From Gammaproteobacteria bacterium (GTDB taxonomy: Bacteria > Pseudomonadota > Gammaproteobacteria > Pseudomonadales > Pseudohongiellaceae), in assembly GCA_028818225.1 (NCBI GenBank), contig JAPPOG010000068.1, positions 1-64,000 of the forward strand: 64,000 bases of DNA, read 5' to 3'. A program made the position numbers and the translations under genes. Positions 50,112 to 64,000 of this stretch are shown in pieces. The notes beneath the pieces are model-generated. The model saw only the letters and a list, made by a program, of their open reading frames with translations, had not been told where the DNA came from and did not search any database. Within the stretch, counting starts at the first letter, position 1. Every line of letters begins with the position of its first letter.

Positions 50112-51119
50112 TCAAAGTTTAACGATCATTTTTCCGAAATTGTCGCCGCTGAACAGGGCAAGAAAAGCGTCAACAGCGTTATCCAGGCCTTCAACCACGG
50201 TCTCCCTGGTTTTAATCTTGCCTTCGCTCACCCAGGCTTCCATGTCTTGCAGGAATTTTTCTCGCATATCATTGTGATCGAACACGATGAAGCCATTAAT
50301 GCGTACTTTTTTGCCGACGATTAGCATCAGGTTGTTCGGGCCCGGTGCTGGCTCGGCATTATTGTAAGTCGCAATCATGCCGCAGGCAGCGATGCGACCG
50401 AAATGGTTCATGACATTGAGTGCTGCCTGTAAATGTTCCCCACCAACATTTTCAAAATACACATCGATACCATCTGGCGCTGCCTTTGCCAGAGCTTCGG
50501 TCAAGTCGCCGCAGGTTTTGTAATTGATAACTTCATCGACACCGCATTCATCTACCAACCATTGCGCCTTATCATCACTACCGACTGATCCAACAACACG
50601 ACAACCCAGGTTTTTGGCAATCTGGCAGACGTTTGCGCCCACCGCACCGGATGCAGCTGAGACGAAAACTGTTTCACCTGGTTTTGGTTCACCGAAGCGC
50701 AGTAGGCCGACATAAGCAGTCATGCCGGGCATACCCAGTGTGCCCAGATAAAGTGATAAGCGCTCAGGATCGAATGGCGTAAATTTGTTTACCGTCGCAG
50801 CATCTGCCACGAAATGATCCTGCCAGGCAGCGCCGTTTAGTACGATATCACCGGCTGCTAATCCTTCTGCGTTGGATACCACTACCTGACCAACTGCGCC
50901 GCCATACATGGGTTGATTGAGTTGGTAAGGTTCGGCATACACACCCTGGGCGCGCATGCGACCACGCATATAGGGGTCGACGGACATGTAAAGGTTTTTA
51001 ACCAGTACCTGGCCAGCACCGGGTGCAGGCAGATCTACTTCGACGATTTCAAAATGATCATGGTTTGGCATGCCGTCAGGTCGGCTTACCAGGTGAACTT
51101 GTCTGGCTTTTGTAGTCAT
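50112..51119 (-). CDS. NADPH-dependent MDR oxidoreductase (CurA/LTB4DH-like)
   Basis: A 335-residue medium-chain reductase. Near the N-terminus VDPYMRGRM is the family signature, with no structural-zinc cysteines. GAVGANVCQIAKNLGCRVVG is the NADPH loop and DVYFENVGGEHLQAAL the following signature. The closest type is the leukotriene B4 12-hydroxydehydrogenase / curcumin-reductase group, which reduces alpha,beta-unsaturated carbonyls. It lies 15 bp downstream of the TRAP permease gene and may be the last gene of that transcript. Confidence 0.92.
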   Translation of the reverse strand: MTTKARQVHLVSRPDGMPNHDHFEIVEVDLPAPGAGQVLVKNLYMSVDPYMRGRMRAQGVYAEPYQLNQPMYGGAVGQVVVSNAEGLAAGDIVLNGAAWQDHFVADAATVNKFTPFDPERLSLYLGTLGMPGMTAYVGLLRFGEPKPGETVFVSAASGAVGANVCQIAKNLGCRVVGSVGSDDKAQWLVDECGVDEVINYKTCGDLTEALAKAAPDGIDVYFENVGGEHLQAALNVMNHFGRIAACGMIATYNNAEPAPGPNNLMLIVGKKVRINGFIVFDHNDMREKFLQDMEAWVSEGKIKTRETVVEGLDNAVDAFLALFSGDNFGKMIVKL

Positions 51120-51134
51120 GGTTCTCTCTGATCT

Positions 51135-53150
51135 TCAGGTACTGGGCGCTGGTTCGATTGTCCCGCTGCGCTTTTGAAAAATGACGATGCCGAACAACAT
51201 AGCAGCACCGGCGATGTGATAATAAATTGGAAAAGGGGTCCACATTAATAATGCAGCGCTTACTACTAATACAGCTGCAATTAAAGCGTTAATCTTCGTT
51301 TCAAGATGCCATTGCAGTAATCCTGCCATGGCATAGAGCCCGAGACAGGACCAGAAGAATACTTCGATGCGTTCCGGCCAGGTGCCGGAGATTAAGGGAG
51401 AATAGGCGAACAGCACTGGCACCAGGTACAGGCCTTTGGCTATCTTCCAGCTGGTTAATCCGGTAGCGATTGGTCGGGTACCAGCTATTCCTGCAGCAGC
51501 GAATGAAGCAAGGCAAACCGGAGGGGTTACGTTGCTGTCCTGGGATAGCCAGAAAATAATCAGGTGCGCGCTCAATAACATGCCAGTGAGTAACTCTGGT
51601 TGCAGCATTTCCTGGCGAATTAGTTGTTTCATCTCCAGGGGCATTTCTTGCAATGCCACCGCGGGATCACCCCCGAACAAGCCAATGGTGGCAGCAACAT
51701 TACTGGGTAAGTCGCCGGCCTGCAATGCTTCAAGCAAGGCGGATTGACTAATTAAATCGAATATCAATGGTGCTGACAGTGTAGCCAGAACAATGTAAGA
51801 CGCAGTGACCGGCAGGCCCATGCCCAGTACCAGGGAAGCCAGGGCAACCAGTACCAGGGTAATTAACAAGTTGCCCTGAGCCCACTCTACAATCATCAGG
51901 GAAAAGGCATTACCGACACCGGTAGTAGTGACCACGTTTATGATTATTCCTACCGACACCAGTAATAGTGCTGTGGAGACCATAGTCTTAACACCGCCCA
52001 CAACGGCATCGAAAATATCGGGTAGCTTCATGGGTGTCGGCGATAACCAGGAAGCGCCAATGACACTAATAATGGCGAAGGCCGCTGACGTGGTGGGTGT
52101 TCGTCCGGAAACCAGGAAGCCAACCAGTACCGTTAAAGGAATAATGAAGTGCCAGCCTTGCTTCAAGACATCAGAAATTTTTTCGGCATCCTCATCTTCG
52201 ATGGGTTTTAGTCCCATGCGCTTCGCTTCGATGCGTACGAAGTAGGAAACAGTCAGAAAGTAGAGCAGGGCCGGTAATGCCGAAGCGGCAATCACCGTCA
52301 AATAGGAGATCTGGGTATAACTGGCCAGCACGAATGCACCTGCACCCATGACCGGGGGCATTAAAGCGCCCCCAGTGGAAGCGGCAGCTTCAACCCCGGC
52401 AGCAAAACGCGGCGAAAAGCCGGATTTTTTCATCATGGGTATGGTGATCACGCCAATGGAAACAGTATTGGCGACGGCGGAACCGGAAATCGAACCCATG
52501 AGGCCGGATCCAACCACGGAGACGAAACCGGCGCCACCGGTCAAGCGACGGGTCATGCTCTGGGCCACCTTTACGATGAAATCACCGGCGCCGGACTTGA
52601 GCAGGAAGGAACCAAAGATGATGAACATGAACACAAAAGTCGAAGAAATTTGTGCAGTCAAGCCAAACATGCCTTCGCTGGTAAAGAAGCTGCGGTAGAG
52701 CACGGTTTCCAGGCTGAGTCCAGGGAAGGCGAATACCCCGGAGATGTAACGACCCAGAAATAAAATATAAGACAGGCTCACCAGGATCAGGATTGGCATG
52801 AACCAGCCAGTGGTCCTGCGGGTAAATTCGATGGCCAGTGCGACGGCGATAATTGAAAAAATATAATCGCTGAGAATGTATTCCGTTTCCCGCGCGTAAA
52901 GTGCATTTTCAAACAGGATTAAATAGGACGAAGTGGCTACCGCGATTACAGCCAGGCCAATATTGATCAGGTAAGGTAGAGATCCCCGTTCGATATCATC
53001 CTGTTCGTTTGCCATTAAGGCGCAGATGGCGACAAAGCCACCAAAGTGAATAGCGGACAACCAGAGCTCAGAGATACTGGCGAAGACGTTGCAATAAATG
53101 TGGAAGACTGCAAACAAAAAGGCAGCCCATTTTAAATAAGTCGATTTCAT
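51135..53150 (-). CDS. TAXI-type TRAP transporter fused permease
   Basis: A 671-residue membrane protein combining small (DctQ-like) and large (DctM-like) TRAP subunits. The large part carries GSGLMGSISGSAVANTVSIG, AAASTGGALMPPVMGAGAFVLA, GMGLPVTASYIV and NVTPPVCLASFAAAGIAGT. The solute-binding partner is 10 bp upstream on the same strand. TRAP systems use ion gradients. Substrate unknown. Confidence 0.95.
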   Translation of the reverse strand: MKSTYLKWAAFLFAVFHIYCNVFASISELWLSAIHFGGFVAICALMANEQDDIERGSLPYLINIGLAVIAVATSSYLILFENALYARETEYILSDYIFSIIAVALAIEFTRRTTGWFMPILILVSLSYILFLGRYISGVFAFPGLSLETVLYRSFFTSEGMFGLTAQISSTFVFMFIIFGSFLLKSGAGDFIVKVAQSMTRRLTGGAGFVSVVGSGLMGSISGSAVANTVSIGVITIPMMKKSGFSPRFAAGVEAAASTGGALMPPVMGAGAFVLASYTQISYLTVIAASALPALLYFLTVSYFVRIEAKRMGLKPIEDEDAEKISDVLKQGWHFIIPLTVLVGFLVSGRTPTTSAAFAIISVIGASWLSPTPMKLPDIFDAVVGGVKTMVSTALLLVSVGIIINVVTTTGVGNAFSLMIVEWAQGNLLITLVLVALASLVLGMGLPVTASYIVLATLSAPLIFDLISQSALLEALQAGDLPSNVAATIGLFGGDPAVALQEMPLEMKQLIRQEMLQPELLTGMLLSAHLIIFWLSQDSNVTPPVCLASFAAAGIAGTRPIATGLTSWKIAKGLYLVPVLFAYSPLISGTWPERIEVFFWSCLGLYAMAGLLQWHLETKINALIAAVLVVSAALLMWTPFPIYYHIAGAAMLFGIVIFQKRSGTIEPAPST

Positions 53151-53160
53151 AAACTACTGA

Positions 53161-54195
53161 CTATTCTCCATCGCCTGAGTTGTTTGCTTGAGCTGCTTCG
53201 TTGATTAGAAGACGGTCTGGAATTTCCAAACCAACTTCCCGGTAATAGCGCAATGCGCCGGCATGTAAAGGGGCACCCAAACCGTCGATGGCTATCTCCG
53301 GACGCATATCATTGGTTGCGCCATGAATTTCCTGTAGTGTTGCCAGGTTTTCCCATATAACTTTTGTAATGTTGTAGACAACTTCATCCGGGATATCAAC
53401 GCGGGTCACTAATACATTCGGAGAGGCTACGGTGCGTATGTGGTCGGTCTGGCTTGGATAGGTTCCTGGTGGAAAGTCGTACCAATCCCAAAGCGGATAG
53501 CGGGCGTTGAGTTTGTCCAGTGATTCCTGGGTCCAGTTGAGGATGGTCATGCGTTCGCCCATGAAGGCATAGGCGCGAGTTATGGCACTTACCGGTGCGC
53601 CGGCAGGTATATTCATGCCAACGATATTCCCATCCTGAATTGCATTGGAAGTTGGTCCATAACCCATGTAGGCCAGGTTAAATTTTTCTTGGTAATCAAT
53701 GCCCAGAGTATCGAGGATAAATCTTCCTGTTTGTTCGGCGCCGGAATTTCTCGCGCCAAGCACGTAGCGCTCACCATCAATGTTGTTCAGGTCATTCATA
53801 AACTTGCTGTCGGTGAGTTCCGTCAGCAACACGAAGTGTTCGACGTTTTTCCAGAGCGCACTGACGCTACGGAGGTGAGATTGTGGTCTGCTGACTGGAC
53901 CTTCACCGGTCCAGGACCAGGCGCCGAAAGGACCCTGCAGAATGGCAAACTGAGCCTGGTTATCACGCAGCAGTTTCAGATTCTCCATGGAACCCGCTGA
54001 GCTGATTGCTGTAAGTGAAATACCGTCAGAATCGGCAAGTTGTGCGTGGGCTAATGTGGCAATGGCAACACCAACCGGATAGAAGGTACCACCAGTTGTC
54101 GCGGTAGTTAATACGTAGGGGCGGGCCCGGGAGAGTTCATCACTGCAGGATGAAAAAATAATCGCGAGAATCAGGCCTACAACTAAGTTCTTCAT
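53161..54195 (-). CDS. TAXI-family TRAP solute-binding lipoprotein
   Basis: A 344-residue TAXI binding protein with lipobox IIFSSC. The family pattern TATTGGTFYPVGVAIATLAH opens the fold, with SSAGSMENLKLLRDNQAQFAILQ and LGARNSGAEQTGRFIL following. It delivers solute to the fused permease encoded 10 bp downstream. Substrate is not predictable from sequence; some TAXI proteins bind glutamate or related acids. Anchoring by lipid is unusual among TRAP binding proteins but fits the lipobox here. Confidence 0.94.
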   Translation of the reverse strand: MKNLVVGLILAIIFSSCSDELSRARPYVLTTATTGGTFYPVGVAIATLAHAQLADSDGISLTAISSAGSMENLKLLRDNQAQFAILQGPFGAWSWTGEGPVSRPQSHLRSVSALWKNVEHFVLLTELTDSKFMNDLNNIDGERYVLGARNSGAEQTGRFILDTLGIDYQEKFNLAYMGYGPTSNAIQDGNIVGMNIPAGAPVSAITRAYAFMGERMTILNWTQESLDKLNARYPLWDWYDFPPGTYPSQTDHIRTVASPNVLVTRVDIPDEVVYNITKVIWENLATLQEIHGATNDMRPEIAIDGLGAPLHAGALRYYREVGLEIPDRLLINEAAQANNSGDGE

Positions 54196-54366: not shown

Positions 54367-55197
54367 TCAGTTATTCTGCAATCGCGGTGGCGGCGAGAAT
54401 GGGATGGCTGGCGCCATTGAGCGGGCGCCTTGCTGATCATCCCCTTGATTAATAAATACCGCATCGTTACCGCCGAAGGAAAATGTGCCGTAGCGAGACT
54501 GACTTCGCTGTGCTGCTCGTGTTTCTTGCAGCAAGTCCAGTTCATTATCGGTTAACGCATAAGCCAGGGACTCAATCATCGCGTCTGAGTTCATTACACT
54601 CCGCAGTTGAGCGCGCATTTCTCTTCTATCTATTTCCTGATTCTGCGCTGCCTGCATAATTTCCTGTCGCGCTTGATTCTGCTTGTCTATTTCATTGCTC
54701 AAGGCATCGATAATTATCTCCAAGCGCCCATCGCTAACATCGAGAGCTTGCAGGAATGAACCAAATTGTCCATGCATCGCCATGACCTGACTCAGTTCCA
54801 TGGGTTGCAATTGGGCGATCTGCTGGATCAAACCGACGCGCTGATTGAGTTGTTGGTTACTTTGGTATGAGTCATATTCAATTTGTACCTGGCGTCTGAT
54901 TTCGCGTTCCAGCTCGGCATAGTCAGGATCGGACCGCTGTTCAGCAATTGCCAGCTGATTAGACACAACAGTGAGATGGCTGCTTAACGTATTTAATTCA
55001 CTTCGTAGCTGTGCGATTTCTCTTTCCTGCTCCAATCTTTGCATACTGTTGGCCTCTGCCCGGGACAGGAGTTGCTGCAGATGATCGTTATAATCAGCCA
55101 TGCGGGTATTGTTAGCGGCATCTTGCGAATAAAAATAGAGGGCGACCGCGCTTGCCAGAACTGCGATAGTGGTTGAAATTAGTAAGGGCGTTCTCAT
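54367..55197 (-). CDS. Membrane-anchored coiled-coil protein, unknown
   Basis: A 276-residue protein with one N-terminal transmembrane helix (LLISTTIAVLASAVALYFYSQ), then a long heptad-type helical region (about residues 35-110, YNDHLQQLLSRAEANSMQRL), more helices with Gln/Met richness, and a Pro-rich C-terminus. No enzyme motif is visible. It is the last gene of the seven-gene minus-strand cluster that begins with an ABC ATPase, 38 bp after the small membrane gene. Function unknown. Confidence 0.75.
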   Translation of the reverse strand: MRTPLLISTTIAVLASAVALYFYSQDAANNTRMADYNDHLQQLLSRAEANSMQRLEQEREIAQLRSELNTLSSHLTVVSNQLAIAEQRSDPDYAELEREIRRQVQIEYDSYQSNQQLNQRVGLIQQIAQLQPMELSQVMAMHGQFGSFLQALDVSDGRLEIIIDALSNEIDKQNQARQEIMQAAQNQEIDRREMRAQLRSVMNSDAMIESLAYALTDNELDLLQETRAAQRSQSRYGTFSFGGNDAVFINQGDDQQGARSMAPAIPFSPPPRLQNN

Positions 55198-55235
55198 GGG
55201 ACTGCTTGTTCAAAATTGGTTGTAACTATTTTAAG

Positions 55236-55499
55236 CTACTTTGCTTTCTTCCTGTCGGCACCGAGGGTGTCTTTAACATGACCGGAAAGTGGTACTTCTT
55301 CGTCCATCTTTGAAACCAGAATTGTTGCTCCCGCAAGAATTGAAGTGCCAATGGTTACGCCGACAATCAGGGCTATTCGCAACAACATATGCACGTGAAT
55401 ACCTGTGTAGTATTCTCCGATCTCCGCTATCGCGTTTACCAGTACCAGAGCTATCCCGAAGGAAGTCCAGACTGCTTTTTGCATGGTGAATGCGCTCAT
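55236..55499 (-). CDS. Small two-helix membrane protein, unknown
   Basis: The ATG at 55499 with AAGGGCG upstream gives an 87-residue protein; the ORF-track start is inside the previous FG-GAP gene. It has two helices (VWTSFGIALVLVNAIAEIG and IALIVGVTIGTSILAGATIL) and a short charged tail. It lies 22 bp after the second FG-GAP gene in the seven-gene cluster. No family recognised. Confidence 0.72.
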   Translation of the reverse strand: MSAFTMQKAVWTSFGIALVLVNAIAEIGEYYTGIHVHMLLRIALIVGVTIGTSILAGATILVSKMDEEVPLSGHVKDTLGADRKKAK

Positions 55500-55521
55500 G
55501 GCGCGCCCTTGGAAGTGAAAA

Positions 55522-57177
55522 TCAATTTGAGAGTAACAGTATTCCCTGAACCTGACTACTGTCATGTTGGGTAAATACAATCACATCATCGAGGGAATCT
55601 GCGTTTAGTCTTACCGGAATTATGTCGCCATTCTCCACGGAAGTGCCGAGTTCGATGGTAAGGTCCGCACTACGTTCGTCTATTAATTCCAGATGGGGAT
55701 TGCCACCAATGGAGATATTGTCGATTATTTCTCGAATATTAATTTCGTAGTCGTCTTTTTCGCGGCTGTATTGCAATGCGCCGAGAAAATCTTCCGAGTC
55801 ATCATCGGGCTCGATACTGTTTAGAAACAGCTCGACCTGGTTATTAACTAACACCAATAAATCTTCCTGATCGATAGCGTCATCGAGATTACCCACACTG
55901 GTAGGGATAATTTCGTCACTCTGCAATTCCCGGGCTTCCGCTGTCAGTTCCTCAAAGGTAGTGGCGAGCCTTATTACAGAGGGAAAGCGCAGATCCACGG
56001 TAAGTTTGCGCGCAGGTCTTCGAGCGAATCTTTCGCCATCGTTAGGGTATATAAAGGCTTCAATAGCAACACTGCCGGAGAGTGCCAGCCAGATAAAAAT
56101 ATCCCCCACGGAAATGGGTTCGACGCGCCATAGCCACAAATCTTTCAAGCCATCGTCGTCCTCATCATAAAGAAATGTACTGAGCACGTTACCGCCAGAT
56201 CGCAACACCTGGCGCGGTTGTTCCAGGTTCATGCCGACTGCGGTGCCACCAAATAAGGAAACCTTGCCGCCCTCGCGCAGCAACAGGTCTTCGATACCAT
56301 CGCCATCCACATCGTCCAGTACTTCTTCATGGGTAAGGGCCAGGACGCCGGTTAAGTTGGAGAAATCGAGATTATCGATATCGAACTCACCAAGCCGTTC
56401 TTCAATTTCGGCGATATTTATCGAATAGGAAGGCACATTATGGAAATAGGCATCGCCCAATTCGTCGGCGAGAAAAACATCGAGTCGTTCGTCGGTGCGG
56501 GATATCAAATCATCATAGCCATCGCTGTTTACATCCCGTAACTCCATAAAGGGAATTCGCACTGCCTGACCAGTGCGCCGCTCCAGCGCGCTGGGTTGCA
56601 GTATGGTGCGCATCCTGTTCTCCGCTGCGATGCTAAAACCTGGCTGGTAGTTGCCATTGCCGGTGGCAATAAATACGTGGAGGTTACCGGCCCCGGGTAT
56701 AATAAGGTCCTCCCGTTCATCACCGTTTATATCTCGCGAGAAGTAGAGGCGGTTAAGGCCTTTGCTAAGAAATCCTGGTAACTCCGCTTTGATTAACTCC
56801 GGCTCCTGGATTGTTTCGCCTTCGATCGGCCAGACAAAAGCTTCTCGACCATTCACCAGGGCGATGATCGAAGCGCGATCTCCGCTGTCATAGTTTGTGC
56901 TCAGGTCCCAGCCTACAGCCTGGTTGGAGAAATCTATCTCCTGGTGACCTGCTTCAAAATCGAATCCGTCTTCCCGCTGAAAATAAATGCGCAGTCTTTC
57001 ATCGATCACCGTGATGATCTCATTCAGCCCATCGCCATTGAGGTCTGCGACAAGCATCTGTTCGCTTTCTGCTGGAATCGAAAACGGCAACTGGGTATAG
57101 CCAGCGGTATTAGAAAAACCCAGGCTGCTTACAAGACATCCGTATAAAAGAAGAAAGAAATTGTTGGTCGTTTTCAT
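55522..57177 (-). CDS. Exported FG-GAP/VCBS-repeat protein 2
   Basis: A 551-residue exported protein with a signal peptide and FG-GAP-type calcium-binding repeats: VADLNGDGLNEIITVIDE, SRDINGDEREDLIIPG, LRDVNSDGYDDLIS and LDDVDGDGIEDLLLREGG. They suggest an integrin-alpha-like propeller. Its start overlaps the stop of the first FG-GAP gene by 4 bp, so the two are coupled and probably act together. The C-terminal part (after about residue 400) is not repeat-like. Function unknown; likely extracytoplasmic binding. Confidence 0.85.
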   Translation of the reverse strand: MKTTNNFFLLLYGCLVSSLGFSNTAGYTQLPFSIPAESEQMLVADLNGDGLNEIITVIDERLRIYFQREDGFDFEAGHQEIDFSNQAVGWDLSTNYDSGDRASIIALVNGREAFVWPIEGETIQEPELIKAELPGFLSKGLNRLYFSRDINGDEREDLIIPGAGNLHVFIATGNGNYQPGFSIAAENRMRTILQPSALERRTGQAVRIPFMELRDVNSDGYDDLISRTDERLDVFLADELGDAYFHNVPSYSINIAEIEERLGEFDIDNLDFSNLTGVLALTHEEVLDDVDGDGIEDLLLREGGKVSLFGGTAVGMNLEQPRQVLRSGGNVLSTFLYDEDDDGLKDLWLWRVEPISVGDIFIWLALSGSVAIEAFIYPNDGERFARRPARKLTVDLRFPSVIRLATTFEELTAEARELQSDEIIPTSVGNLDDAIDQEDLLVLVNNQVELFLNSIEPDDDSEDFLGALQYSREKDDYEINIREIIDNISIGGNPHLELIDERSADLTIELGTSVENGDIIPVRLNADSLDDVIVFTQHDSSQVQGILLLSN

Positions 57178-58733
57178 GGCCTTGCCACCAAGAGTGAGGT
57201 AGTGGCGCCATGCCGCAGCACTAAATCGGGAGTTGCATCATCATTAAGCGGGAGTACTTCAAATTCGAAAACCGTTCGGGGTGAAATATATTCCCAGAAA
57301 GGCTCCTCGGCGATACGTAACTGCCTATCGATTTTTTTTGCCGCCAGGGTGCCATTATCCGTAACGTAAAGCGCATCATTGGTGCCATCGCCATCAACGT
57401 CGTAGCGCAGGGACATTTGTTCTGATAAGCCCCTGACGTTGTCAGCAGAAAAACTTTCTTCCAGGCGGGAATTGGGTCGTCGCGCGAATAACTGCCCGGC
57501 CTCGGCAGCCTCTGAACTATAGAGTAATTGTGTGCGATTAATGCTGGCATTACGAATCGCATCCACAACGGGAATGGTGTAGTAGCTGACATTAAGTGTG
57601 GGTTTTTCGGTAGAGGCCAGCTCTACGAATTCCAGTCTTACATCATAACCGGCAAAGCGCATGATCTGATTGGGTTGCTCGAGCTGGAAGCTGTTATCTG
57701 TGTTCAAATAGAAACGCGCGTCCCATTCATTGCCGTCACCGGTTAATCGTAGCAAATCCACCAGGCCATCTTTATTCATATCAAGCAGCCGCATGTCGCC
57801 TCGGGTATCGGTCGAGCCTTGCCAGTCAGCCTGCTCGGGGAAACCGCTGGCTTGATCCTGGTAATGGATATTGAGCTGGCCCAGGCCATCGTCGCCAACG
57901 TTAAGATAAATCAGGTCCTTTAGCCCATCGCCATTCAATTCAGCCAGCAAAGCAGTAGGCATCCAATTTTCAGTGCTTAACAGAGCGCGGGATTCTGTTG
58001 ATTTGGGTTCCCATTTTTCCACAAATCCAGAAAAGGGTGTTGGTGTTTCAGCGCGGAGTGAAACCACGACTCCTTCGTCCGCATTGATGCCAATACTGGC
58101 ATTTAAGTCTGCATCCTGGCTGTTTCGTTGCGCGGAAGTCAGGTTCTCGTTAACGGTACGGATATTTGAGACCAGTTCGAATTGTTCGTTGCCTGTGCCA
58201 ATGAAAAAGCCGAAACGATCCTCCCCTGGTAGAAAGAAATCTATTTCGCCATCGCCATTGATGTCTTCGATATCGCGTAGAAACTCCACACTATCCTGAC
58301 CAGGAATGGCGGCAACCAGATCCCATTCGAACAAAAGTTGCAAGTTGCCGGTATAGCCTTCGACAGCAGTGGAAAGACTGAATACTGCGTTGTTAGCCAG
58401 CAGGACCAACTCTTTCCCCGGGTCGCTGCGCAAATCGGCAAAGCCCACGGCAATGATTTCAGTTTTAATCTCCACCCTTTGGGGAGTCGAGGAAAAATTA
58501 CCATCACTTTGCTGGTGATGAATGTGCAGCTCTCGGCCAATGGCGGGATCGTAATGAGCGAAGATGAGATCTTTTGTCCCATCACCGTTGACGTCCTCGG
58601 TAATTAGCGTATCCCAATTGTTCTCGCGAACCAGTTCGAAAGCAACATAATTGCTTTGGGCGAAGCCAATGTTTAGCCAGCTTAAGCCAAGAAGCAGAGA
58701 TACTAATGTTGATTTTGCCGAGGCCGCTTTCAT
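57174..58733 (-). CDS. Exported FG-GAP/VCBS-repeat protein 1
   Basis: A 519-residue exported protein with a signal peptide (STLVSLLLGLSWLNIGFAQS) and at least six Ca-binding FG-GAP-type repeats: TEDVNGDGTKDLIFAHYD, IEDINGDGEIDFFLPG, LAELNGDGLKDLIYLNVG, LLDMNKDGLVDLLRL and RYDVDGDGTNDALYVT. Weak similarity to its neighbour suggests an old duplication. It starts 8 bp after the PDZ lipoprotein and overlaps the next FG-GAP gene by 4 bp. Role unknown; probably binding at the cell surface or periplasm (inference). Confidence 0.85.
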   Translation of the reverse strand: MKAASAKSTLVSLLLGLSWLNIGFAQSNYVAFELVRENNWDTLITEDVNGDGTKDLIFAHYDPAIGRELHIHHQQSDGNFSSTPQRVEIKTEIIAVGFADLRSDPGKELVLLANNAVFSLSTAVEGYTGNLQLLFEWDLVAAIPGQDSVEFLRDIEDINGDGEIDFFLPGEDRFGFFIGTGNEQFELVSNIRTVNENLTSAQRNSQDADLNASIGINADEGVVVSLRAETPTPFSGFVEKWEPKSTESRALLSTENWMPTALLAELNGDGLKDLIYLNVGDDGLGQLNIHYQDQASGFPEQADWQGSTDTRGDMRLLDMNKDGLVDLLRLTGDGNEWDARFYLNTDNSFQLEQPNQIMRFAGYDVRLEFVELASTEKPTLNVSYYTIPVVDAIRNASINRTQLLYSSEAAEAGQLFARRPNSRLEESFSADNVRGLSEQMSLRYDVDGDGTNDALYVTDNGTLAAKKIDRQLRIAEEPFWEYISPRTVFEFEVLPLNDDATPDLVLRHGATTSLLVARP

Positions 58734-58741
58734 TTGCTTTT

Positions 58742-59698
58742 TTAGTTTTCCAGTTCGGTTAACTCACCGTAATCACTGCTTATATTGAAAAGACCAAAAA
58801 TACTGTGTGATCTTTCGCCTTCCGTGCGGGTGTAGCTGTAAACGGCGAAGACCCAGAAATCCAGAATAGAGAAATTTTCACTGGATGGATTCAGGGACGA
58901 TTCATATCGAAGCAATGGTCCCACATTAATACGATTGATTCTCCTGCCTGGATCCCAAAGTTGCACCGAGCTTTCGGTTACGTTGCCATCATTATAAATG
59001 GTCATCTGCACTTCTTCCCCCAGTTCATGTTCCCGATTCAGGCGAGTCACCAGGTCTTGAGCGGAATTAAGATTGCGACCGTTCAGGCGCAGGATAATGT
59101 CGCCATCGCCAATGCCCGCGGCCGGCAAGGGGCTGGAGGGAAACAATGCCTCTACTTTTGCTGCTGCCGCGGATTGGTTATTGATAGTCAACATTACAGT
59201 GCTGTAGCCTGCGCGGGTAGCAATGGGGTCGATCCGATAAAGCTCGATCGGTCCATTCGAGTTGTTGATGGTCCTGCCAATTACTGTAGTGCCGAATACG
59301 GTGGTGTCTCTCTGTACCCTGAACTCAAAACTTGTGCTATCTGCAGTCTGTTGAAGTGCTTCGATAGCATCAGGATGATTGGTGTCCAGGTCATCGATAG
59401 CAAGAATGACATCGCCAACCTGAATTCCAGCGGTTGCGGCCGGACCATTGGTAACCACGTTGCGTACTCGCACTCCAGGCAAGATTTCGATGTTGAGGAG
59501 GGAATCGCTTTCGTTTAAACCAGCTTCCAGGCCGAAGTCTATTTTCAGGTTTTCATTTGCAGCGTCGGTCAGACTGATGTCTTCAGAAGAAAGTGTTATT
59601 GCCGGTGTTAAGATTCCTGGCTCATAGCTGATGCAGCCAGCCAGTTGCAGGCTAGCGAGAAGCATCAGAATTTGCTTTGATCTGGTAATTCTAAGCAT
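58742..59698 (-). CDS. Double-PDZ lipoprotein
   Basis: A 318-residue lipoprotein with lipobox LQLAGC. Two PDZ domains are visible: VRNVVTNGPAATAGIQVGDVILAIDD (about 80-150) and VEALFPSSPLPAAGIGDGDIILRLNG (about 185-240). No protease domain is present, so this is not DegP-like; it probably binds peptide C-termini or scaffolds the partner proteins. It lies 20 bp after the ABC permease and 8 bp before FG-GAP protein 1. The C-terminal segment (about 250-318) is unassigned. Confidence 0.86.
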   Translation of the reverse strand: MLRITRSKQILMLLASLQLAGCISYEPGILTPAITLSSEDISLTDAANENLKIDFGLEAGLNESDSLLNIEILPGVRVRNVVTNGPAATAGIQVGDVILAIDDLDTNHPDAIEALQQTADSTSFEFRVQRDTTVFGTTVIGRTINNSNGPIELYRIDPIATRAGYSTVMLTINNQSAAAAKVEALFPSSPLPAAGIGDGDIILRLNGRNLNSAQDLVTRLNREHELGEEVQMTIYNDGNVTESSVQLWDPGRRINRINVGPLLRYESSLNPSSENFSILDFWVFAVYSYTRTEGERSHSIFGLFNISSDYGELTELEN

Positions 59699-59718
59699 GT
59701 GCCTAATTGTTCAGGTCC

Positions 59719-60576
59719 CTATATCTTTTTACCTTGAATCAGGACAAGTGTCACAGCGACAAAGAGCAGCAACGCCGGAATTGGTACCCACAGATTCATT
59801 TGTAATACCTCTTCATCCACCAATACATCGGAATAACCGCGCACGATGCGACTCACATCTTGTAAATAAGATGCATCGATCAGGGAAGGTTGAAAGCGAG
59901 CATAAAGAAAATTGGCATAGTCGCCCAGCATTCCCTTGAATATGTCCATGGCCAGGGTAATGCCCAGCGCACTGGTTACAGCCTGAGTAGCGGACTGACT
60001 GAGCACCGAGATCAACAAGCCGAAAGCAATGGCGGCAGGAATTGGCATTAGCGCCAGTTGCAGGCCCGTGTGTATCTCAAAAAGAATTTCTTCTTCGCTG
60101 ATTAACTCAAAGCCGTCTTCCACGATGGGGCCGAACTCCCAGAACAGGCCACTGCATAAATAGGCGGCAATCAGCAATACAAGGATTGAAGCAACTGCCA
60201 GCAGATGCAGGTGCAGGAGCTTGGCCAGCATCAGAGCAGGCCGGCTGACGCGGCGAATCAGCAGGTGCCGCACCATGCCTGTTTCGCGTTCGTAGCTGAA
60301 GCTATAGGCAGCCTGGGCAACCAATAACAGGCCTAGCATAGTAAGTCCGGTGCTCATGCTATCGACGAAATAGCCGTAGGCATTGGCACTTACTACTTCA
60401 TCAAAACTGGCATTACCCAATAATGAATCCCTTGCAGCCTGGCCGGTTTCCGTCACCCAAAGTAGTAAGTTTTGTAGCACAACGATTAGCGCAGGTGCCA
60501 ATATAATTAACTTGCTGGAAAAAGTTCGCAGTGCAATGAACATTTCCGATTTGAGAGCAGTGACAAATCCGTTCAT
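59719..60576 (-). CDS. ABC-2-type transporter permease
   Basis: A 285-residue permease with six predicted helices. Segments include LIILAPALIVVLQNLLLWV, TMLGLLLVAQAAYSFSYERETG, SRPALMLAKLLHLHLLAV and IPAAIAFGLLISVLSQSATQAVTSALGITLA. The YERETG followed by a permease helix is typical of ABC-2 exporters (NosY/gliding-type). Its ATG overlaps the stop of the ATPase gene (ATGA). It likely exports or flips a substrate, or drives conformational work on periplasmic partners; substrate unknown. Confidence 0.88.
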   Translation of the reverse strand: MNGFVTALKSEMFIALRTFSSKLIILAPALIVVLQNLLLWVTETGQAARDSLLGNASFDEVVSANAYGYFVDSMSTGLTMLGLLLVAQAAYSFSYERETGMVRHLLIRRVSRPALMLAKLLHLHLLAVASILVLLIAAYLCSGLFWEFGPIVEDGFELISEEEILFEIHTGLQLALMPIPAAIAFGLLISVLSQSATQAVTSALGITLAMDIFKGMLGDYANFLYARFQPSLIDASYLQDVSRIVRGYSDVLVDEEVLQMNLWVPIPALLLFVAVTLVLIQGKKI

Positions 60577-61499
60577 GCCTGCTCCTCACTGGTAATTGAG
60601 CGAAATAAATTACCCAGAGAGGCCTTTTGTACAATTAATTCGCTAACGGGAATATTATTGGCCACCAGCTGGCTGTTTAAGTCTGCAGACTCTAATTCCG
60701 CAGTTTCCAATTGAATGTAACCATTCAAGTCTTCATTGCTGATGGCAACGTCACTTCTCTGCTTTAAGTAAGTCAGGGCGCTTTCCCTGGCTTCGGTGCT
60801 GAGTAACAAGCTGTGCCTGGTTGCAGCTAACAAGTTTTCGATTGTGTTGCTCACCGCGATGGCGCCATCATGAAGTATGGCAATGTGACTGCAAATGTTT
60901 TCCAGGTAAGGGAGTTGATGGCTGGACAGAAGAAAGGTGGTTCCTTCTTCTTTATTTAGTCTTTTTATTAGCGCCAGCACATCATCGACACCACCAGCAT
61001 CGAGGCCGTTAAACGGTTCGTCCAATATAATTAAATCAGGATTGCTCAAAAGCGCCTGTGCCAGTGAAGCTCGCCGCTTATTGCCGAGGGACAGATGCCG
61101 GACCTTGAAATTGGAAAACTTTTCAATACCCAGCAATTGTTCTACCCGTTCAGGGGTGCGTACCGTATTCTCGCTTAATAGCAGTGCGTGCTCGAGGGAT
61201 TGGCGCACGCTCAGATTCGGGTGCAGGCTTGGTGTGTCGAAAATGCCGACGATTTTTCCCCGGGCCTGGTGCAAAGTTTGGGGTGAGTAATTTAACAAGC
61301 TGATAGCGCCACTGTTAAATTGCTGTAGTCCAAGCAGGCATTCGATAGTAGTAGTCTTGCCGGAACCGTTCAGTCCAACCAGTCCCAGGATTGATCCTTG
61401 TTGAATTGAGAGATTTAAGTCTTTTAAAACAGCGAATGATCCGTAACTTTTATTAAGTCCGTTCACGGATAATGCGAGGGCATTGTTGGCTGCGCTCAT
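60573..61499 (-). CDS. ABC transporter ATP-binding protein
   Basis: A 308-residue ATPase. The Walker A is GLVGLNGSGKTTTIECLLGL, the signature is HLSLGNKRRASLAQAL (LSLGN in place of LSGGQ), and Walker B is DLIILDEPFNGLDAGG. The order and ATG overlap with the permease identify the pair. The ATG at 61499 is chosen because the ORF-track GTG at 61562 lies in the hairpin; no clear Shine-Dalgarno is seen at either. First gene of the seven-gene cluster. Confidence 0.92.
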   Translation of the reverse strand: MSAANNALALSVNGLNKSYGSFAVLKDLNLSIQQGSILGLVGLNGSGKTTTIECLLGLQQFNSGAISLLNYSPQTLHQARGKIVGIFDTPSLHPNLSVRQSLEHALLLSENTVRTPERVEQLLGIEKFSNFKVRHLSLGNKRRASLAQALLSNPDLIILDEPFNGLDAGGVDDVLALIKRLNKEEGTTFLLSSHQLPYLENICSHIAILHDGAIAVSNTIENLLAATRHSLLLSTEARESALTYLKQRSDVAISNEDLNGYIQLETAELESADLNSQLVANNIPVSELIVQKASLGNLFRSITSEEQA

Positions 61500-61535
61500 T
61501 GGAATTAGATACTGAGAAGCTCGACCCGGCTTATT

Positions 61536-61570
61536 ATATTGGAGAGCCACAGTGCGTGGCACTCCAATAT
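61536..61570. terminator. Long hairpin between the M16 gene and the ABC operon
   Basis: ATATTGGA-GA-GCCAC, loop AGTGC, then GTGGC-AC-TCCAATAT: 13 paired bases in a 35-bp element. It lies 5 bp after the M16 stop. The lack of a T run leaves either termination or a transcript-stability role. Confidence 0.7.
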
Positions 61571-61574
61571 CTTA

Positions 61575-64000
61575 CTAATCGACAAATAATTGTTCGACCT
61601 GAACTTCTTCGACCGTGCCAAACTGTTCAAGTTCCTCGGTATCGATGATGGAAAGATCACCAACGATGGAGATGAGTTTTGCTCGGTCTTTTACATGGGC
61701 TTCCTGGAAAGCCTGTAAATCTTCGAGGCTTGCTGTTTGCAGCTCCTGGTATCTTGCTTGCCTCGGGTCTGTTGCAAAGCCAAGGCGTTCCCAGCTTCTT
61801 ACCGCACCAATAACTTCCCGAAAGTTAAGCTTCGAAGTACGGTAGCGATTTAACTGGGAATTGACGGCTTCTTCGAAACGCTCCGAGGAGGAGGGCATGT
61901 TATCGATGAGATCAATAAAGGCATCGAGGGCTTCAACCGTTTTATCTGTCTGGGTGCCAATTGCTCCGAGCATCAGGTTTTCGGCATTAAGTCTACTGCC
62001 CTGGGAATAGCGTGCTTGGGCTGAATAGGCCAGGGCGCGGGCTTCCCGCAATTCCTGAAATACAACACTGGACATGCCGCTGCCAAAGTAATTGGTATAA
62101 ATAGAAGACATCACGGCATCATCAGGATCATAAACACCATCAGCGAATTCGATGCGCACCTGGGCCTGGGCAGTCTGCTGGTCAACCACCATCAATTCGG
62201 TTTCATCGATTTGTCTTGCGGTTCTGAACCTGAAGTCAGGTGTGTCCTGCAGTTCACCTTCGATGGTGTGATGACGACGCAAAACTTCTACCAGGTCTTC
62301 CAGTGGCATCGAGCCGGTATAAGCAATGGTGTGTTTGTAATTAAGCAGGTCTGACGGCAGGGACATTAACTCATCGAGCTTGGTATCCATAATCGCTTGC
62401 GAAGTGAGTGCTTCCAGCAAGGGAGACTCTTCGCCGTAACGGTTATACAGGTAGAGTGCTTGCGCGATGGCAGGTGGCGAACTCTTTCTGTCTTCGCGGG
62501 TTTTCAACAGGATTCCTTTCAATTGCTCCAGGGTTTGTTCGTCTGTTGCTGGTGTCTTGATTAGCTCCATCATGAGCGCAACAGAATTTTCGAATTGTTC
62601 ATCAAGGCCTGACAGAGAAAATGCTGAAGAGTTTTCGCCAGCGCCGAAACGAAATTCCGATCCCATGCGATACCATTCTTTCTGTAATTCCTCATTAGTC
62701 ATGTTTAGTGTGCCGGCGACGTCCATCAGTGAAGCTGACAAGCCAAGCTTCTCATTTTCTTCGGTGCCAACTTCTACCCCGATTGAAAAGGTAAACAAAT
62801 CATTGAGTGGGTTCGGCGCGTAATAGAGCTCAACACCGTCGGCGAATTCGATGACTCGATAGTCAGTGTCTGCCTCAACAAAGGAAGGCTCGATTTCATC
62901 GTATTCCATCGCCAGTATGCGTGCAGCGAATTCTGACTGACGAGTTGGATCGATGCTGACCGGATCAATCTGGGGTTTCTCTACTGGCGGAACCACATGT
63001 TGATCATCGACGCGATAGACTGATACGTAATCGTCGCCAAAATATTTGTTGGCAACGGCTACCACGTCTGCTTTCGTCAGCTGCTCCATGCGATCTAATT
63101 CAGCTATGTGAAAATCCCACTCCGAGCCTTCGATGAAAGACTGGCGCATAATGCCCACTCTTGCTGTATTGAATTCCAGGCTGGCTTTCTCGTTCTTCTT
63201 AAAGTCATTAATGATGGCGGGGATAATCCATTCTTCGAAGTTGCCAGCTTTAATATTTTCGATTTGCGCCAGCAGTAAATCTTCAACTTCGGCCAGTGAT
63301 TGATCCTGTTTGGGCACGCCAAACAGATTCTGGGATCCGTAATCGTTGAGAAACAGGGGCGATGAACCAGCATTAGATACCAGTTGCTGTTGATTCAGGT
63401 TGAGATTGATTAATCCTGCAGTACGATTGTCGAGAATCATGTCTACCAGGATTAATGCTTCCTTGTCTGCGTGGCCGTTTGCAGCAGTGCGAAAGGCAAT
63501 GGAAACCTGTTCTTCACCCGGATATTGAACGGTTCTGCGCTCCGCCCCTGCCAAGGGTGGTTCAACCCATGGGCCAACTTCTGGCACAGGCTTGCTTTCC
63601 CAGTGGCCAAATTTGTCACTGATCAGGGCAATGGTTTCTTCAATATCGATATCGCCACTGATGAAAATGCCCATATTGTTGGGCACATAATAAGTGTCGA
63701 AATAGTCCTGGATGTAGACCAGGGAAGGGTTCTTTAAATGGTCAACCGTACCTATGGTGGGTTGTTGCCCGTAAGGATGAATTTTGTAGAGCAACTCATC
63801 TATGGCCGTGCCAATAATGCGGCCCGCATTATCCAGTGTTCTATTCTTCTCTTCGTAAACCGTTTCTAATTCCGTGTGAAAAAGTCTGAAAACCGGATTT
63901 ACAAATCGATCTGACTCAATTTCAGCCCACTGTTGCAGACGGTTGGATGGCAGGCCGACCTTATAAACTGTTTCTTCATACCAGGTATGGGCGTTGAGTC
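61575..64000 (-). CDS. M16-family (pitrilysin-like) metallopeptidase, 5' end outside window
   Basis: The ORF track starts at an internal TTG (63794), but the frame stays open to the window edge. The extra residues (NAHTWYEETVYKVGLPSN and ESDRFVNPVFRLFHTELETV) match the M16 N-terminal domain, so this is a partial gene. The zinc motif HxxEH should lie just outside the window. Visible features are YVPNNMGIFISGDIDIEE, then a second M16 domain with YTGSMPLEDLVEVL and FGSGMSSVVFQELREARALAYS. It ends 5 bp before the hairpin upstream of the ABC operon. Confidence 0.93.
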   Translation of the reverse strand, partial: LNAHTWYEETVYKVGLPSNRLQQWAEIESDRFVNPVFRLFHTELETVYEEKNRTLDNAGRIIGTAIDELLYKIHPYGQQPTIGTVDHLKNPSLVYIQDYFDTYYVPNNMGIFISGDIDIEETIALISDKFGHWESKPVPEVGPWVEPPLAGAERRTVQYPGEEQVSIAFRTAANGHADKEALILVDMILDNRTAGLINLNLNQQQLVSNAGSSPLFLNDYGSQNLFGVPKQDQSLAEVEDLLLAQIENIKAGNFEEWIIPAIINDFKKNEKASLEFNTARVGIMRQSFIEGSEWDFHIAELDRMEQLTKADVVAVANKYFGDDYVSVYRVDDQHVVPPVEKPQIDPVSIDPTRQSEFAARILAMEYDEIEPSFVEADTDYRVIEFADGVELYYAPNPLNDLFTFSIGVEVGTEENEKLGLSASLMDVAGTLNMTNEELQKEWYRMGSEFRFGAGENSSAFSLSGLDEQFENSVALMMELIKTPATDEQTLEQLKGILLKTREDRKSSPPAIAQALYLYNRYGEESPLLEALTSQAIMDTKLDELMSLPSDLLNYKHTIAYTGSMPLEDLVEVLRRHHTIEGELQDTPDFRFRTARQIDETELMVVDQQTAQAQVRIEFADGVYDPDDAVMSSIYTNYFGSGMSSVVFQELREARALAYSAQARYSQGSRLNAENLMLGAIGTQTDKTVEALDAFIDLIDNMPSSSERFEEAVNSQLNRYRTSKLNFREVIGAVRSWERLGFATDPRQARYQELQTASLEDLQAFQEAHVKDRAKLISIVGDLSIIDTEELEQFGTVEEVQVEQLFVD

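Follow-up and report, generated by a model that had tools for sequence, protein, structure and literature searches.

A conserved five-gene block joining an ABC-2 pair to a double-PDZ lipoprotein and two FG-GAP proteins in a mostly marine gammaproteobacterial clade: a possible NosFY-type motor

The window analysed here, a stretch of 64,000 nucleotides from a 3.47-Mb draft genome in 89 contigs, contains seven minus-strand open reading frames between 54367 and 61499 (Table 1). In order, these code for an ABC ATPase, an ABC-2 permease, a double-PDZ lipoprotein, two FG-GAP proteins (FG1 and FG2), a two-helix membrane protein (TM2) and an anchored coiled-coil protein (CC). An ORF check of the window located all seven genes, their junctions and an upstream hairpin exactly where the initial annotation had placed them, and the domain calls agree with Pfam: ABC_tran, ABC2_membrane_2, two PDZ domains and FG-GAP_3 in both FG-GAP proteins. 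The TM2 and CC proteins gave no significant Pfam match. From the ATPase to CC, the successive junctions are a 4-bp overlap, gaps of 20 and 8 bp, a second 4-bp overlap, and gaps of 22 and 38 bp. The ATPase gene starts with the ATG at 61499, and an in-frame GTG is also present 63 bases upstream.

Table 1. Genes and features of the locus, with the evidence for each.
Feature	Role	Position	Strand	Length and evidence
ABC ATPase	core gene 1	60573-61499	-	308 aa; ORF; Pfam ABC_tran 8e-28
ABC-2 permease	core gene 2	59719-60576	-	285 aa, six TM helices; Pfam ABC2_membrane_2 6e-8
Double-PDZ lipoprotein	core gene 3	58742-59698	-	318 aa; lipobox LAGC; Pfam PDZ_2 9e-20, two stretches
FG-GAP protein 1 (FG1)	core gene 4	57174-58733	-	519 aa; signal peptide; Pfam FG-GAP_3 3e-15, four stretches
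FG-GAP protein 2 (FG2)	core gene 5	55522-57177	-	551 aa; signal peptide; Pfam FG-GAP_3 5e-16
Two-helix membrane protein (TM2)	syntenic passenger, outside core	55236-55499	-	87 aa
Anchored coiled-coil protein (CC)	accessory gene, being lost	54367-55197	-	276 aa
M16 peptidase gene	upstream flank, outside core	61575-64000, runs off window	-	Pfam Peptidase_M16_C 6e-34
Stem-loop in M16-ATPase spacer	no T-tract	61536-61570	-	folding energy vs shuffles

The hairpin between the M16 peptidase gene and the ATPase gene consists of a 9-bp outer stem and a 5-bp inner stem. The 81-nt stretch that contains it has a folding energy of -25.1 kcal/mol, compared with -16.3 +/- 3.2 kcal/mol for shuffles. It lacks a T-tract and is therefore not a canonical terminator; a TATAAT-like hexamer comes after it. 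Strong stem-loops of unrelated sequence, likewise devoid of T-tracts, occupy the spacer corresponding to 61500-61575 of the window in many relatives (L032, L040-L044, L046-L048 and L057). On the other side of the seven genes, positions 50112-54195 code for a TAXI-family TRAP binding protein, a fused TRAP permease and an alcohol-dehydrogenase-like oxidoreductase, the order of which is conserved in nearly all clade members.

The locus is widely kept among the relatives of this organism. FG1 was found in 36 of the 37 genomes searched in the genus, the window's own genome included, and the other families of that sample gave one weak match. The order M16-ATPase-permease-PDZ-FG1-FG2-(TM2)-(CC)-TAXI-TRAP-oxidoreductase is preserved in 26 genomes of the genus, with few exceptions, which lie in the tail. 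A scan of named genomes, mostly MAGs, with an FG2 profile covered 80 of 104 relatives. All five genes from the ATPase to FG2 were present in the same order in 69 of these 80 loci, and each of the remaining 11 is cut by a contig end. The closest relatives are uncultured Pseudohongiella, OM182 and Pseudomonadales MAGs, and the clade is mostly marine. The 4-bp overlap between the ATPase and permease genes recurs in 53 of 69 loci and that between FG1 and FG2 in 66 of 79; recurring overlaps of this kind are the usual sign of translational coupling. Since gene order is kept among relatives with protein identity down to approximately 47%, and since these overlaps recur, the grouping of the genes is not due to chance.

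Beyond the genus, the core was sought in a sample of genomes of the order, with the FG2 profile in 295 and the PDZ profile in 195. Full-length FG2 relatives were confined to genera g1 and g23 of family f1 and to a single f41-family genome, while samples of the class and phylum returned remote, partial matches only. The PDZ profile matched six of its 195 genomes, and each of the six has FG2 together with the rest of the core. A closer look at family f41 revealed three genomes with FG2 relatives, all from genus g79, in which the same five genes keep their order and occupy two unrelated sites. Two of these genomes share one genomic context, and in the third the cassette lies elsewhere, flanked by a pyrG-like gene (named from its translation). 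Neither TM2, CC, the M16 gene nor the TAXI gene was found near the core in any of the three. A gene of the GSDH type (glucose/sorbosone dehydrogenase) stands just downstream of the cassette in the two genomes with the shared context (L168:12296-13939 and L216:6397-8058) and is absent in the third. Remote FG-GAP proteins of about 500-560 aa from other families (L175-L181) matched the FG2 profile weakly and were set aside, there being no ABC ATPase relative nearby. The PDZ and FG2 proteins had no match in 72,556 plasmid records, and a plasmid-borne distribution was rejected on this basis.

A natural absence, through either loss or lack of gain, defines the limits of the block from the other direction. 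In G146, a genome of the sister genus g23 reported as 100% complete, the M16 and TM2 genes lie 77 bp apart (L238, 15004-18344), exactly the five core genes are missing, and the genes past TM2 keep the order of their relatives. Profile searches of this genome found neither PDZ nor FG2. Because the core is absent while M16 and TM2 are left adjacent, TM2 and CC are regarded as passengers. Among the 61 loci with both flanks, CC itself was found in 18, where it stands between FG2 and the TAXI gene. In about five of these 18 (L080, L086, L087, L092 and L096), it is split into two or three short ORFs, as though in decay. The M16 peptidase was considered as a sixth member, as it adjoins the core in nearly all family members, and genus g24, from which the block is absent, has no close M16 orthologue either. 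It was ruled out by its persistence in G146 without the core and by its absence from beside the core in the second family.

Thus, the limits of the core follow from the distribution of CC, the absence of the block in G146 and the second family taken together, and TM2, CC and M16 fall outside it. The functional unit consists of five genes, those for the ATPase, the permease, the PDZ lipoprotein, FG1 and FG2. The initial annotation had treated all seven genes as one unit, and this must be revised: TM2 is present where the core is absent and is missing from the second family, and CC is missing or fragmented in most loci. Its expectation that at least five of the seven would co-occur in diverse genomes is borne out by the clade loci and the second family. 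PDZ or close FG-GAP homologues lacking the ABC pair, which it had named as evidence against such a system, were not found in the genomes searched, the partial loci all ending at contig ends. It is very improbable that the five genes have unrelated functions and are adjacent by conserved synteny alone. Within the family, the M16, TAXI-TRAP transporter and oxidoreductase flanks are also conserved in order, but the five genes occur together in unrelated contexts and are missing together where the flanks remain, so this explanation is already contradicted.

Two further observations concern the region next to TM2. In genus g23 (L169, L172 and L238), the TM2-TAXI junction holds two genes resembling those for large ion or citrate-type transporters and one for a small secreted protein, on mixed strands, as read from translations. 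In G240, an ORF of at least 2428 aa adjoins TM2 (L171:3-7286); it has an LEPRMLLDAA motif near its start and resembles a large adhesin-type repeat protein.

The ATPase contains all the motifs of an active enzyme: Walker A (GLNGSGKTT), an acidic Q-loop (IFDTP), the signature (LSLGNKRR), Walker B (LIILDEP) and the H-loop (SSHQL). The Asp of the Q-loop and the catalytic Glu are invariant in 69 of 69 relatives, the distant family included. Among its full-length bacterial relatives of solved structure, NosF ranks best (3.6e-35, residues 9-258). An acidic Q-loop is common to both proteins, NosF having Glu at the equivalent position in 15 of 15 sequences, whereas the signature and Q-loop residues differ. 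Comparison with PADLOC models gave cross-hits for the ATPase only and no match for the other six proteins, and an anti-phage defence system was rejected for want of such support.

The permease was modelled with AlphaFold2 (pLDDT 81). In a fold search of the PDB with this model, the first seven places go to chains of NosY, from structures of NosDFY, NosFY and NosDFYL (probability 1.00, TM 0.51-0.67, E 1e-3 to 1e-2), and the peptide exporter PmtCD ranks eighth (TM 0.54-0.64). As all E-values of the fold search exceed 0.001 and are modest, the match of the predicted structure to NosY is a statement of fold class. A remote and weak agreement was also obtained by profile, the permease reaching a set of 13 NosY proteins, drawn from nos clusters within the order, at E 2e-4 with an hhalign probability of 47%. 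Two permease segments that are periplasmic in the model topology (144-166 and 216-262) have conservation values of 0.77-0.78, compared with 0.53-0.59 in TM1, TM3 and TM6. They are conserved on a par with the best-conserved helices, as expected for a docking surface. The structural evidence points to a NosFY-type motor. The initial annotation had tentatively proposed a machine for assembling, retrieving or sensing a surface component, and such a motor would be compatible with the assembly role.

The same results leave room for a serious rival, which is possible although doubtful: an ABC-2 exporter of an amphipathic peptide or lipid, of the PmtCD, LanFEG or BcrAB type, with the lipoprotein and propellers carrying the substrate across the periplasm to the surface. 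PmtCD is the next fold after NosY, its permease, like that of LanFEG, being a small six-helix ABC-2 protein of similar fold, and the ATPases belong to the same broad subfamily. Acidic Q-loops are known in exporters of these types. The best NCBIfam scores of the ATPase are also to the lantibiotic-protection (galliderm) and DrrA families. However, these scores (135.5 bits against a cut-off of 310, and 132 against 312) and that to the PmtC model (112 bits against 375) fall far below the family cut-offs, and no biosynthetic gene is evident in the contexts examined. Moreover, simple exporters such as PmtCD and LanFEG do not have a lipoprotein-plus-propeller set, that is, three conserved periplasmic partner proteins.

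These three partners carry secretion or lipid signals in their sequences. Besides its L-A-G-C lipobox, the lipoprotein has a pair of PDZ domains and, at the C-terminus, a conserved tail of about 65 residues, and the lipobox Cys is its only conserved Cys (34 of 34). In the alignment, L-P-G-V is near-invariant in PDZ1 at the position of the carboxylate-binding loop, and PDZ2 lacks the glycine. The nearest solved relatives of these domains are the PDZ domains of DegQ and DegP. Unlike DegP, DegQ and DegS, the protein has no protease domain; it is lipid-anchored and has a conserved tail of its own. On the basis that no Asp stands at position +2, the lipoprotein is predicted to face the periplasm from the outer membrane. 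FG1 and FG2 have signal peptides and several calcium-type D-x-N-x-D-G-x-x-D repeats, and are paralogous by profile comparison (98.9%). Residues 270-390 of FG2 form a near-invariant block. Its AlphaFold2 model (pLDDT 82) is of the beta-propeller type. A sequence search of the PDB with FG2 found no match, and the fold search returned local matches to generic propellers, with a global TM to the query of 0.18-0.27. Because these global matches are poor, no specific function is read from the fold, and matches to toxin propellers are taken at the level of fold only.

No description of this block was found in the literature on operons combining FG-GAP or VCBS proteins, PDZ proteins and ABC transporters. 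NosDFYL, in which NosDFY has a role in the maturation of nitrous oxide reductase (PMC11573801) and NosL is a lipoprotein predicted to reside in the outer membrane (PMC6530538), may be taken as the closest working analogy. Both systems have an ABC-2 pair with the same permease fold class, a related ATPase and an acidic Q-loop. Both are also gene blocks with a secreted repeat protein and a lipoprotein, which in NosDFYL act with the ABC pair on a periplasmic client. In contrast, the present block has two FG-GAP propellers and a double-PDZ lipoprotein in place of the NosD beta-helix and NosL, lacks conserved Cys ligands, and carries Asp in the Q-loop where NosF has Glu. None of the three outside proteins matched the NosD or NosL models, and NosD (TIGR04247) was found neither above its cut-off in the window's own genome nor among the seven proteins. 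That the outside proteins have no conserved Cys beyond the lipid anchor argues against their handling copper through thiols in the manner of NosL.

A further precedent, with an ABC ATPase and permease encoded alongside a secreted beta-propeller protein, is PedA1A2BC. This system couples its ABC pair to a beta-propeller with YVTN repeats and no known function, and is required for lanthanide-dependent growth (PMC6839425). Uptake of a similar kind, in which the ABC pair imports a ligand bound by the secreted propellers, could draw on the several calcium-type sites of FG1 and FG2 as binding sites for lanthanides or other metals, but is improbable. The Ped permease belongs to another family, and the Ped system has YVTN repeats and a substrate-binding protein and no PDZ lipoprotein, whereas the present block is without a substrate-binding protein. 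No PedC match was found in the window's own genome at 1e-20. The permease reaches PedC at E 1.5e-4 over only about 70 residues, and scores 21.5 bits with the PedC model TIGR03861, for which the cut-off is 241. Also, no PQQ enzyme was seen beside the block in the Pseudohongiella clade.

The most likely reading, to which we assign a probability of roughly 0.45, is that the products of the five-gene block make up a NosFY-type ABC motor that acts on periplasmic proteins via the PDZ lipoprotein and the two propellers. The five proteins would form one complex, in which two copies each of the ATPase and the permease would sit in the inner membrane and convert ATP hydrolysis to conformational work on periplasmic proteins. 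The PDZ domains of the membrane-anchored lipoprotein may serve to hold a client or hand it over, and the two secreted FG-GAP propellers, with their calcium-type repeats, may act as periplasmic docking or handling subunits. Lipoprotein and propellers would thereby take the roles that NosD and NosL fill in NosDFYL, and the motor would work on a periplasmic client rather than in export. Counting against the motor is that no client gene is linked to the block. As a more tentative proposal, the block could represent a new class of envelope machine, in which a NosFY-type motor, acting via a double-PDZ lipoprotein and two dedicated beta-propellers, helps a client in the periplasm or outer membrane to fold or mature, or hands it over. 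The NosDFYL design would then be a general, exchangeable module and not a speciality of copper sites.

Nearly all sampled members of this uncultured, mostly marine clade keep the block, and its precise definition as five genes makes it testable in one strain. To our knowledge, hardly any ABC transporters other than NosDFY are known to act mechanically on periplasmic proteins rather than to move a substrate. If the motor reading is true, the block would be a second case of such a motor, with unrelated outside parts, and would open a route to the general function of motors of this type.
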